DNA from: a virus | IMG/VR virus record: IMGVR_UViG_3300034102_001054 | Location: 1-37,095 of that record | DNA length: 37,095 bases | Reading direction: 5' to 3' (one strand) | Shown: positions 4,449 to 36,929 of the stretch, piece by piece | Position numbering within the stretch: position 1 is the first letter of the stretch | Layout of the letters: each line of letters opens with the position of its first letter | The notes under the pieces: model-generated | What the model was told of the DNA's origin: nothing | The model's database searches: none | Seen by the model: only the letters and a program-made list of their open reading frames with translations | Program-made: the position numbers and the translations under genes

Positions 4449-4522
4449 GGAACTATAGCTTAATGGTAGAGCAACTATCTGTAAATTGATAGTAAGATAG
4501 AGGTTCGATTCCTTTGGTTCCA
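4449..4522 (+). tRNA. tRNA-like sequence, probable anticodon GUA (Tyr), aberrant anticodon arm
   Basis: A 74-base near-cloverleaf. Acceptor GGAACTA pairs with TGGTTCC, followed by discriminator A and no encoded CCA. The D arm is GCTT/GAGC with GG in the loop. The T arm is GAGG/CCTT around the classic loop TTCGATT. CTGTAAA fits an anticodon loop with U33 and anticodon GUA, but the stem ACTAT/ATAGT closes only if three extra bases (TTG) sit on the 3' side of the loop; a C-G pair then leaves an eight-base loop. There is no long variable arm as in bacterial tRNA-Tyr. It could be a degenerate tRNA, a tRNA mimic or an unusual suppressor. Confidence 0.5.
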
Positions 4523-4622: not shown

Positions 4623-4656
4623 AATCCCCCATATCTTCACAGACTTGGGGGATTTT
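4623..4656 (-). terminator. Two-way terminator between left arm and late operon
   Basis: Stem AATCCCCC/GGGGGATT (4623-4630 with 4647-4654) with a 16-base loop. T-rich sequence lies on the + side, and GTTGTTT follows the stem on the - side. It lies about 35 bases beyond the endolysin stop, so it probably ends the late - strand transcript and also blocks + strand read-through. A 12-base sequence, ATTAAACAACAA, is repeated on both sides (4613-4624 and 4660-4671). Confidence 0.8.
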
Positions 4657-27966: not shown

Positions 27967-30288
27967 CTAATCATTTTTAATTTCATTAATATATTGATAG
28001 ACTGTCTTTCTTGAAACCCCTAAAATACTAGATATGTAAGTTACTTTTGTATTTGGGTCTTTTTTCAAAATTTCAAAAATCTTTTCCTTAGTAGATTTAT
28101 TCTCATTTTGATTAACTACTTTTTTTACGTCAGAAAATTCAATAGTATTAAGTTTGTGTTTCTTTGCCATAAGAACAAAGTACTCTGAAAGTTTGATAGC
28201 TCCAGCCATTGAGCGTTCTGAAATATAATCCATTGAATTTTCACTATTATCATAAGCATAAAGTGTATTAAGTAGCAATGCAAATCTAGGGATATATGAC
28301 TTTTGTTTTGGGTACATTGATTTCATATACTCATTTTCATCATCACTATTTTGATGTGTAGTTATTTTATTAAAAACTTCAATCCAAAGTCTTTTTGCAC
28401 CATCCGATAGTGGAACTATTTTTGATTTAATTTCACCATCTGGGTCATATTTTATAACATGTTTTTTTATTACATTGTAAAAATTAACCACATAGTCATT
28501 ATACCATTGAATGATTTCTTCACTCAAATCATCATCATTATATTCATCAACTTTTGCATCTGGAAAAGTAGTTAACATACGGTCAATAAATCCATTGTCT
28601 TTGTTTTCCTCAGTAAAAAACTGAACTAAGATTTTAGGCTGAATACCTCCTAAAACTGGCAAAATAGGACTTTCAACAAATGAACTCTTTGCGGTTTTTC
28701 TATTCATTGCTATGCCTTTGTTTGACCACGAACTTAGCCAAAACTCCAAATCAGAACCAGCTCGATACTTGTTCATATCTTTGTACCATCCTGCTAGTTC
28801 ATCGCAGAATACACCAACTGCGTTTTTATTTTCTTCATGCAAATCTGTTATAGCTTCAATGGTGAAATCAGAAACAATCATTTGTGTTTTACTCGGCTTT
28901 TTTATCTCCTCATTATTCTGCTTTTCCTTTTTGTCTAAATCCATGTAAGCCTCGTATAACTTAGTATTCTTAATGTACTTTTTTATCTCACCATTATTGA
29001 TTTTTTCAAGTGGGTAAATTATTCTGCTTATAGATGGTGTCTTACCGATACCAGCTTCACCAACTAAACTAATCCATACCACCGCCGATTCTACCCACCC
29101 ACCTTTCACTCTAACTTTGATAGAATTTCCAATTATCAAAGATAACAGCCAAAGGAAAGAGCAACCCATATAATCTATATTACTGTTTAGTGTCTTATTG
29201 CAAAGTAGTAAATAAGATTTAATACTATCAGGTAGAACATTTATTGGGAACTCTATTTTTGAGGGTATTTGCTGTTCTATTTTTTCATGGATAACTGTTT
29301 GACTTTTTATAGCTTTTTCGTTTATGTGCCTACTTCCATAGTTCTTTGAATATAAATCACTAGCCGCTTTTTTAAAATCACCATGGTAATTTTTTATAGC
29401 ATAAATATCAAAAGGTGATAGTGGTTTTTCATGCGGGTAAATTGTACCTGTTGAGAAAAGAAACATTTTATTATCCTTAGTGAAAATACTTCCACTACTA
29501 GCAGATGTTGCACCGTATCGCCTTATAATAAGTTTATCGGAAAGTTTTTTTACAATTGTAAACTCATTACATATCAAATCCCATACTCTATTTTTATTAT
29601 TAAAATCTTCCCATGGTGTAATATCATTATCCGTTTTTCGATATTGCTTGATTACTTCCTTTGGTTGCTCTGGTTGCAGTTCAACATAGTTAAAAGACCT
29701 TGATATTTCCCAAAGCAAATCACGGTCTTTTTCAGATATTTCTTGTACATTATCATATCCATTTTTAGAAACTTGGTTATCGTAAATCCAGACATAACCA
29801 CCAATACCTCGGCTCTCAATGATAGCTTCTTTGATACCTTGTAATTTAGCTATCTTTATATTTCCAGCTATCTTTTCACATTTGTAAATAATGTGATACC
29901 CATTGTTTACAGTCTTGTAAATTACAAATTTAGTATCAAAGTCATCTATTGATTCTCTTAGGTACATTGTGTATTCATTCCAGAAATCTTGTTGGTCTTT
30001 TAAAGTTGGTAGTACCTTCAAATCAATATCAATAACCTCAATGTTATTGTAACCTGTAACAATTCCAATACCAACAGATGGTTTTATTTCCACATCTTCG
30101 CCTGTATCTTTATCTTTGTAAAATGTACCTCCATCATATTGATATACCTTTTCAAAATCGTTTTTTGAGTATGGTCTAGTTTGGCATTTTTTCCATGAAA
30201 AGTTAGGCACTTTATTTTTACCTACTGTTATCAAAGAGAAACCATCGTCTAATAGCTTATAGCATCTTGAAAGTGTTGGTTTATTCAT
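27967..30288 (-). CDS. Primase-helicase (prim-pol + DUF3987-type ATPase)
   Basis: A 773-residue replication protein. The N-terminal part (about 1-200) is a prim-pol-like domain: IEVIDIDLK (83-91) gives the hDhD metal pair D87/D89, followed by a conserved NGYHIIYK. The central and C-terminal part is a DUF3987-like SF3-related ATPase with Walker A GEAGIGKT (410-417) and Walker B VGVFCDELAG (about 491-500, D496/E497). The C-terminus (about 720-773) has a helix-turn-helix, SILGVSRKTVYQYI. The protein probably primes and unwinds at the origin. The iteron-like array lies directly upstream, as expected for an initiator or its target. Confidence 0.85.
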   Translation of the reverse strand: MNKPTLSRCYKLLDDGFSLITVGKNKVPNFSWKKCQTRPYSKNDFEKVYQYDGGTFYKDKDTGEDVEIKPSVGIGIVTGYNNIEVIDIDLKVLPTLKDQQDFWNEYTMYLRESIDDFDTKFVIYKTVNNGYHIIYKCEKIAGNIKIAKLQGIKEAIIESRGIGGYVWIYDNQVSKNGYDNVQEISEKDRDLLWEISRSFNYVELQPEQPKEVIKQYRKTDNDITPWEDFNNKNRVWDLICNEFTIVKKLSDKLIIRRYGATSASSGSIFTKDNKMFLFSTGTIYPHEKPLSPFDIYAIKNYHGDFKKAASDLYSKNYGSRHINEKAIKSQTVIHEKIEQQIPSKIEFPINVLPDSIKSYLLLCNKTLNSNIDYMGCSFLWLLSLIIGNSIKVRVKGGWVESAVVWISLVGEAGIGKTPSISRIIYPLEKINNGEIKKYIKNTKLYEAYMDLDKKEKQNNEEIKKPSKTQMIVSDFTIEAITDLHEENKNAVGVFCDELAGWYKDMNKYRAGSDLEFWLSSWSNKGIAMNRKTAKSSFVESPILPVLGGIQPKILVQFFTEENKDNGFIDRMLTTFPDAKVDEYNDDDLSEEIIQWYNDYVVNFYNVIKKHVIKYDPDGEIKSKIVPLSDGAKRLWIEVFNKITTHQNSDDENEYMKSMYPKQKSYIPRFALLLNTLYAYDNSENSMDYISERSMAGAIKLSEYFVLMAKKHKLNTIEFSDVKKVVNQNENKSTKEKIFEILKKDPNTKVTYISSILGVSRKTVYQYINEIKND

Positions 30289-30292
30289 TTTT

Positions 30293-30549
30293 TGTTACCT
30301 TTTTGTTACCTTGTCACCCTTTTTTGTTACCCTAAAAAAGTGAATGTAACTATTTGATTATTATTTGTTTAAATCTTGTTTTTATTGTCTTTTTTGTCAC
30401 CGTTACAAAAAAAATAAATTTTTTTATTTTTTGTAGAATTTATTATTTTTTACCTATTTTGTTATGTGACATGTCACCATACTGTATTTGTTTCAATATC
30501 AAACAATTAAGTATATTAAATAGGGTGACAAATAGGTGACAAGGTGACA
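30293..30549. repeat. Origin-like array of GGTGACA/GGTAACA words
   Basis: About nine copies of TGTYACC (or its complement GGTRACA) in the 262-base gene-free gap 30289-30550. Forward copies are at 30293, 30304, 30312, 30325, 30395 and 30472, with reverse copies at 30524, 30535 and 30543. The two outer groups face each other with spacings of 11 and 8. GTGACATGTCAC (30466-30477) is a perfect palindrome. The centre (about 30360-30460) is extremely AT-rich. This layout resembles an iteron origin or a multi-operator control site. It lies just upstream of the primase-helicase gene. Confidence 0.65.
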
Positions 30550-30802: not shown

Positions 30803-30816
30803 GATTTTAAATATAA

Positions 30817-30890
30817 AGAACCCTCATAAATTGGAAGTCGCAGTTTCCAACCTATAAGGGTTCTATTTAATTAGTTATTCGACCTGCGAC
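30817..30890 (-). ncRNA. Structured leader RNA with 7-bp pseudoknot
   Basis: On the - strand, GTCGCAG (30884-30890) precedes a hairpin with outer stem AGAACCCT/AGGGTTCT (30817-30824 with 30857-30864) and inner stem TTGGAA/TTCCAA (30831-30836 with 30845-30850). The inner loop contains CTGCGAC, an exact complement of the upstream 7-mer, so the loop can form a pseudoknot. The element fills the 5' leader of the 83-residue gene and ends 14 bases before its ATG. It is probably a cis-regulatory or self-contained RNA; no known class is claimed. Confidence 0.6.
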
Positions 30891-30914
30891 AATCGATGTG
30901 ATATTTTCACTATG

Positions 30915-30932: not shown

Positions 30933-31238
30933 CTAAATTATCATACCTTTTTTCATATTAAAATACTCTTTTTTTAGCTCTGGATAACAATCAAAAGCAT
31001 CATCAAGCATCTTAATTGAGTGAATAACGGTGCAATGGTCACGCCCGAAATAACCACCCAACTCAACAAGTGAGATATTACGACTGTATATTTCACGCAT
31101 AAACTTGTAAATAAATGCACGTGCATAAACGACATTTGTTTTTCTACTCCTACTTTTCAAGTCCGATTCAGTAACTTTAAAGTAGTTGCACACCCGACTA
31201 ATTGAATAGTCAAGTGTGTGAACTTGGTCAACTGTCAT
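30933..31238 (-). CDS. Stand-alone DnaA domain IV-like DNA-binding protein
   Basis: 101 residues from the ATG at 31238, four bases after the SSB stop. A longer frame to 31385 would encode an artificial His-Arg tract opposite the SSB's repeat tail and is rejected. The protein matches the C-terminal DNA-binding domain of DnaA: VCNYFKVTESDLKSRSRKTN, VYARAFIYKFMRE and the signature GYFGRDHCTVIHSI (about residues 62-75). The Asp-His of the signature are kept, but the next residue, Thr in most DnaA proteins, is Cys. There is no ATPase domain. It probably binds an origin or operator of the phage, or competes with host DnaA. Confidence 0.75.
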   Translation of the reverse strand: MTVDQVHTLDYSISRVCNYFKVTESDLKSRSRKTNVVYARAFIYKFMREIYSRNISLVELGGYFGRDHCTVIHSIKMLDDAFDCYPELKKEYFNMKKGMII

Positions 31239-31242
31239 AGTA

Positions 31243-31620
31243 TTAGAATGGTAATCCATCACCCTCTGGCTGTGCCTGTGCCTGTGCCTGTGTCTGTGGC
31301 TCGGCTGTTTGAGTAGGTGCGTTATTTCCGAATTTGGACGGCTCCATATTTCCCAAAATTGGAATAGCCTTGCGTTGTTCTTCACTCAATGCGTTGTAAC
31401 TTGCCTTTTCAAGTGATTGCTTGGCGAAGTGAGTATCGCCGTATTGTCCTACTTGTTTCTTTTCAGTAATCTGCAGGTTGCAATAAAGCTCACCATTCTT
31501 GCCTGAATAGAACTCTGAAACTGGAATACAAACACATTCTACTTTTGCTTCTTTGCCCTGTATTGGATAAACGAAGGCTTTGTTTAATTTTTTGACATCG
31601 ATTTTTAATTGGTAATTCAT
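31243..31620 (-). CDS. ssb: Single-stranded DNA-binding protein
   Basis: A 125-residue protein. The core (about 1-95) is beta-rich, as in small phage SSBs, with ELYCNLQITEKKQVGQYGDT (about residues 44-63). The C-terminus has a flexible tail rich in Q, A, P and T (QAQAQAQP) and ends in GDGLPF, the acidic-hydrophobic tip that binds partner proteins. The tail is encoded by hexamer-like DNA repeats near 31261-31300. The gene lies between a coiled-coil gene and the DnaA-like gene in the replication operon. The assignment rests mainly on the C-terminal tip, size and place. Confidence 0.7.
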   Translation of the reverse strand: MNYQLKIDVKKLNKAFVYPIQGKEAKVECVCIPVSEFYSGKNGELYCNLQITEKKQVGQYGDTHFAKQSLEKASYNALSEEQRKAIPILGNMEPSKFGNNAPTQTAEPQTQAQAQAQPEGDGLPF

Positions 31621-36834: not shown

Positions 36835-36844
36835 TGATGTATTC

Positions 36845-36929
36845 GACAGGTGGAGCTGTCTAATCAATTAACACACACACTAGCCCATTGGCGGACGGTA
36901 CTCCACTACCCGAAGCCGTTGGGCTTTTT
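36845..36929 (+). promoter_or_regulatory. Structured leader with alternative hairpins
   Basis: First hairpin GACAG/CTGTC (36845-36860). Then AGCCCA (36882-36887) can pair with TGGGCT (36920-36925), with ACGG/CCGT nested inside, followed by TTTTT. The same 3' sequence can instead form the short AAGCC/GGCTT terminator hairpin. Two competing folds ending at a T run suggest an attenuator before the repeat-protein gene. Confidence 0.5.

Follow-up and report, generated by a model that had tools for sequence, protein, structure and literature searches.

The DNA at positions 30293 to 30549 of a phage sequence is very likely the phage's own origin of replication, at which the primase-helicase encoded beside it would bind its own iterons and open an A/T tract. 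The sequence analyzed, a linear virus record from IMG/VR, has 37,095 nucleotides and is referred to here as the window. Replication very probably starts at the locus of this array. The computed evidence consists of the array itself, a plan conserved among relatives, a link between the repeated word and one helix of the primase-helicase, and the joint exchange of the HTH carrying that helix with the array. An iteron origin had been proposed in a sequence-only reading, and it is supported by the conserved architecture, by the covariation of word and HTH helix, and by the occurrence of arrays on either side of the gene.

A symmetric word array and its relatives

The window array contains nine exact TGTYACC/GGTRACA words within 257 bp, in agreement with the earlier estimate of about nine in 260 bases. 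TGTYACC lies on the plus strand at 30293, 30304, 30312, 30325, 30395, and 30472 and on the minus strand at 30524, 30535, and 30543. Dinucleotide shuffles of the 257-bp stretch (n = 5,000) gave a mean of 0.14 words and a maximum of 3, and none reached nine. When 7-mers of any sequence were considered, the most repeated one was present in six copies, compared with at most five in 2,000 shuffles. Elsewhere in the 37 kb, the word occurs in only three copies, all outside the array, and a search for a second cluster of GGTRACA words across the window found none. No switch in GC skew was seen at the array, and skew in the window tracks gene direction. A tRNA gene (Rfam RF00005) is located at 4449 to 4522 on the plus strand, near a sign change in GC skew.

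Read from the gene side, the array opens with an outer cluster of TGTTACC, TGTTACC, TGTCACC, and TGTTACC (30293 to 30331, plus strand), and 4 bp separate the first of these words from the start codon (ATG, 30288) of the primase-helicase gene (27967 to 30288, minus strand), so that the array does lie directly upstream of this gene, as had been claimed. An inner TGTCACC (30395 to 30401, plus strand) is followed by a degenerate inverted half, GTTACA. The center, 30407 to 30452, is a 46-bp A/T tract with two G's and no C and is the proposed unwinding element; the centers of the family's arrays are likewise low in GC. On its far side is an inner inverted iteron pair (30466 to 30478), consisting of the 12-bp perfect palindrome GTGACATGTCAC (30466 to 30477) and a C; no second copy of this palindrome exists in the window, even with one mismatch allowed. 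Both the palindrome and the AT-rich center had been noted beforehand and were confirmed. Three copies of GGTGACA (30524, 30535, and 30543) form the other outer cluster (30524 to 30549, minus strand). The two end groups face each other, with 20-nt arms that are 85% complementary. Word steps are 11, 8, and 13 on the left and 11 and 8 on the right; the claimed opposite orientation of the end groups therefore stands, whereas the 11/8 steps run in the same order and are not strictly mirrored. Each spacer holds one perfect IHF-consensus site, AATCAAATAGTTA at 30347 to 30359 (minus strand), a type enriched in the arrays of relatives, and TATCAAACAATTA at 30497 to 30509 (plus strand), in opposite orientations. 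This pair had been missed by the sequence-only reading.

IMG/VR scans returned 307 loci, of which 95 encode a full-length primase-helicase and are mutually less than 95% identical; these served as the nonredundant set and are metagenomic contigs, some possibly fragments. In GTDB genomes, this query recovered no relatives, and among isolated phages there was no relative above 60% identity. In each locus, the densest cluster of any of its own 7-mers was sought up to about 2.2 kb from the primase-helicase gene, and a comparable array was found beside the gene in 93 of the 95 relatives. Scores below -9 (log10) were obtained for 90 of these 93 arrays, compared with 3% of scans of the rest of the locus. 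The array is 5' of the gene in 50 relatives, 3' in 43, and inside it in none, and its side switches at least six times on the best tree, with two switches forced by well-supported branches. The idea that some relatives lack arrays was rejected, as the arrays in question were located on the 3' side or upstream by a few hundred base pairs. Words vary by phage: GGTGACA in the window, GGTAAAA in L032 (81% protein identity), GGTTACACTT in L003 and L004 (74%), and, in more distant relatives, GTTTAAA, GTGTAAC, GTGTGAA, TGGGACA, TGCGACA, GTGTGTA, and others. GGTGACA itself was sought in the relatives and found only in L002; each phage uses its own word. One locus, L204, carries 20 copies of AGCGTTG in 300 bp (1934 to 2234) upstream of its primase-helicase gene, unlike the other arrays; being a repeat of another kind, it was excluded from the word models.

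When 92 arrays were aligned on the center of their own A/T tracts, word clusters fell about 40 and 110 bp to either side, with almost none within 20 bp. This four-cluster plan is common to the 92 arrays while the words differ, which bears out the conservation of spacing that had been suggested as a check. The A/T tract has a median length of 56 bp, and the central 30 bp have a GC content of 10.5%, compared with 33.6% for the loci. At 50 to 90 bp from the center, 44 IHF-consensus sites were seen versus 5.2 expected; such sites are present in about a third of the arrays (28 of 92), and the spacers of another clade carry a different conserved sequence, approximately CTGTANCCCTTATAAACA. Between words of the same orientation, steps of 10 to 12 bp, or roughly one turn of the helix, are the most frequent and a shoulder is seen at 7 to 9 bp, and word orientation within clusters differs among relatives.

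Several phages with 3' arrays have a promoter-like sequence with a structured leader directly before the gene. Leader-like RNAs following a TAnnTTTG promoter were seen in the window at 36844 to 36924 (plus strand) and at about 30808 to 30903 (minus strand), and in relatives, for example at 4624 to 4699 in L032, 4601 to 4686 in L004, and 2918 to 2992 in L106. Each has a small hairpin at its 5' end and, after it, a terminator-like hairpin; the two loops are complementary in sequence and may form a kissing loop. The loop sequences vary and the complementarity is kept. A custom scan over 783 kb of sequence from relatives gave 65 matches, 40 of which have the promoter, compared with 3 in mononucleotide shuffles, and Rfam at gathering thresholds matched no leader RNA in the window, only a tRNA. 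The TAnnTTTG promoter-like sequences suggest a Bacteroidetes host.

The primase-helicase and covariation of its HTH with the word

The proposed initiator is a 773-residue protein that combines a Prim-Pol-like N terminus, a DUF3987 AAA+ helicase, and a C-terminal HTH. Profile searches matched DUF3987 (1e-50) and HTH_11 in Pfam and DNA polymerase/primase in phrog; DUF3987 was the only helicase domain found, with DUF927 and Primase_Cterm/D5-type domains absent, and by profiles and model the primase part is Prim-Pol-like with no Toprim (DnaG-type) domain. Primase-fused DUF3987 domains have been predicted to act as helicases in mobile elements (PMC5862659). A sequence search against solved structures gave nothing credible. 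In the AlphaFold (AF2) model (pLDDT, 86.6), the best match to a solved structure is the prim-pol domain of pRN1 ORF904, at the N terminus, followed by the MCM, AAV Rep40, and papilloma E1 helicases, for which TM-scores are low. The modeled HTH (codons 733 to 772; 27973 to 28092, minus strand) has three helices, at residues 733 to 743, 749 to 756, and 760 to 772, the last being the predicted recognition helix.

Word distance was compared with protein distance in every 10-residue segment, with distance over the remainder of the protein held constant. The best segment was residues 759 to 768 (SRKTVYQYIN), with a partial correlation of 0.41; segments outside the HTH had a mean of 0.013 (standard deviation, 0.062) and a highest value of 0.19. 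The peak persisted in subsets with one sequence per 75% clade, in 3' arrays only, and in 5' arrays only, where overlap with the HTH codons is impossible. This segment corresponds to the predicted recognition helix of the C-terminal HTH, which would read the word.

Single residues were also linked to single bases. The strongest of 6,006 residue-base tests paired residue 760 with one word base: R occurs with C in 31 of 31 clades, and L, V, or I occurs with A in 7 of 8. A second word base varies with residue 765, where R accompanies G (9 of 9) and N accompanies T (15 of 15). When the HTH was left out of the tree, independent pairs agreed 6:0 for L/V/I760 (P = 0.03) and 8:0 for R765 (P = 0.008), and those for R761 ran about 9:0 as expected (median P = 0.004). 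In the residue-base table, some words (L007, L135, and L136) were read from the wrong strand, an error that weakens the R761 rule rather than creating it. Words were aligned to maximize their mutual similarity, which adds noise and could mildly favor consistent columns; the distance scan is independent of a common word register. The window obeys the rule (R760 with C, Q765 with G), as does its neighbor L032 (K760 with GGTAAAA). Covariation and residue-base rules together predict that the repeats are specific to the DNA-binding domain of the adjacent initiator.

Joint exchange of the HTH and the array

The phages L012 and L016 are 82 to 96% identical until about 150 nt before the stop codon of the primase-helicase gene. 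Over the HTH codons and the array, identity drops to 36 to 76%, and from 250 nt past the stop codon it is back to 82 to 98%. A similar dip at the HTH end and array was seen in L014/L018, L217/L220, L095/L096, and L028/L029, although in L095/L096 the flank past the array soon diverges. No dip was seen in the control pair, L022/L023, whose two members use one and the same word. In close relatives, the HTH-coding end and the adjoining array are thus replaced together, between conserved stretches of DNA.

Proteins with a T5orf172/MUG113 (GIY-YIG-like) domain that end in an initiator-type HTH were found at L002 1338 to 1934, L005 2380 to 2961, L034 4290 to 4757, L058 3 to 341, L062 2274 to 2804, L131 5608 to 6105, and L209 5483 to 6079, all beside the origin or primase gene. 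For the five whose own initiator is known, that initiator ranked 5th, 18th, 32nd, 32nd, and 87th among 92 initiators in similarity to the HTH of the nuclease; the nuclease HTHs are thus usually closer to the initiators of other phages than to their own. They recall Odn of phage ICP1, a T5orf172 nuclease that bears an initiator-like DNA-binding domain and cuts the origin of a satellite (PMC8263062). We tentatively raise the possibility, itself rather doubtful, that the HTH and the origin constitute a specificity cassette open to exchange, that conflict between phages drives the fast turnover of words, and that the T5orf172-HTH nucleases cut the origins of competitors.

Alternative readings, known systems, and significance

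An autoregulatory operator, which the primase-helicase or its HTH would bind only to repress its own gene, is compatible with the closeness of the window array to the start codon and with a covariation that points to this same protein. Several observations argue against a simple operator: the array changes side, and 43 of the 93 arrays are 3' of the gene; several of these genes have a 5' promoter-like leader of their own; a symmetric plan with an A/T core would be unneeded; and the genome has no second word cluster. The conserved plan, the covariation, and the position on either side fit an origin and fit a simple operator poorly, and we consider this explanation unlikely. Because the array touches the start codon in the window, it may have an additional or sole autoregulatory role there.

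Clusters of repeats, both inverted and direct, are a usual feature of repressor operators, so the array might instead serve another regulator, such as an unseen repressor or the products of the nearby 83-residue and DnaA-domain genes. This is extremely improbable, since the word follows the helix of the primase-helicase. Of the binders named beforehand, the primase-helicase is the one favored by the data; the 83-residue protein was rejected as a partner because it is not conserved, just 1 of the 94 other loci having a relative. The supposed DnaA-like protein has the DNA-binding domain of DnaA (Bac_DnaA_C only) and not the rest, and it was detected in only 14 loci. A DnaA-box origin was also rejected: TTWTNCACA occurs six times in 37 kb versus 8.1 expected, with none within 4 kb of the array. 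Short-repeat arrays with IHF sites are also found at centromere-like, packaging, and recombination sites, and a site of this kind could lie beside a replication gene. It is a very unlikely reading here, as the array stays beside the primase-helicase gene and covaries with its protein, and no partition gene was present among the ten replication-region genes scanned. The DnaA-domain-only protein is encoded upstream of the putative origin (30933 to 31385, minus strand; Bac_DnaA_C, 5e-16), and similar proteins occur in 14 relatives.

Under the origin reading, the primase-helicase would use its C-terminal HTH to bind the GGTRACA words, two protein groups would assemble on the symmetric halves, and the DNA would bend at the IHF-type sites. 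The central A/T tract would then melt, the helicase domains would load, and the Prim-Pol domain would synthesize the first primers. Actual binding, melting, the loading of two hexamers, and the start of replication are what we infer.

By analogy, initiation would work like that of PICI/SaPI elements and P4 but with a different initiator family, making this a probable new variant rather than a member, because the helicase family and the gene-origin order differ. In PICI/SaPI origins, an A/T-rich region located 3' of rep is reported to be flanked invariably by two sets of iterons (PMC6092414), and SaPI Rep binds through its C-terminal domain (PMC7581432). As in the PICI/SaPI pri-rep-ori arrangement, the proposed initiator is a helicase, which in some PICIs is also primase fused (PMC6092414, PMC7581432), and short iterons in two sets surround an A/T-rich region adjoining its gene. 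In contrast, these are phages and not known satellites; they are set apart by domain family, with a DUF3987 helicase instead of DUF927 or Primase_Cterm; they have four clusters and IHF-type spacer sites; and the array, rather than being immediately 3', is 5' in the window and 3' in 43 of 93 relatives.

The ori repeat of satellite P4, GGTGAACA, resembles GGTGACA, which is a lead only because the relatives use other words. Like P4 alpha (PMC4234260), the protein is a primase-helicase with a C-terminal DNA-binding domain that would act at origin repeats, but P4 has a primase of the Toprim type found in bacteria (PMC4234260), and the primase here is Prim-Pol-like. The protein shares with pRN1 ORF904 a Prim-Pol domain (the best fold match), a helicase, and a C-terminal DNA-binding domain; pRN1 has an essential region directly 3' of the ORF904 gene and, instead of iterons like those here, a 100-nt stem-loop (PMC4234260). 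In the PLE RepA_N replicon, the DNA-binding domain and origin also covary and are swapped as a module (PMC8263062), but the initiator family is another one, and the exchangeable HTH here is C terminal and, in phages with a 3' array, contiguous with the putative origin.

These analyses very probably locate the origin in a large family of uncultured phages, whose natural variation provides a readable code between residues of the predicted initiator helix and bases of the origin word. Such a code would make origins predictable from protein sequence and testable with small domains. The family also appears to offer a clean case in which origin and initiator change together by cassette exchange, which bears on replicon incompatibility and on competition between phages.
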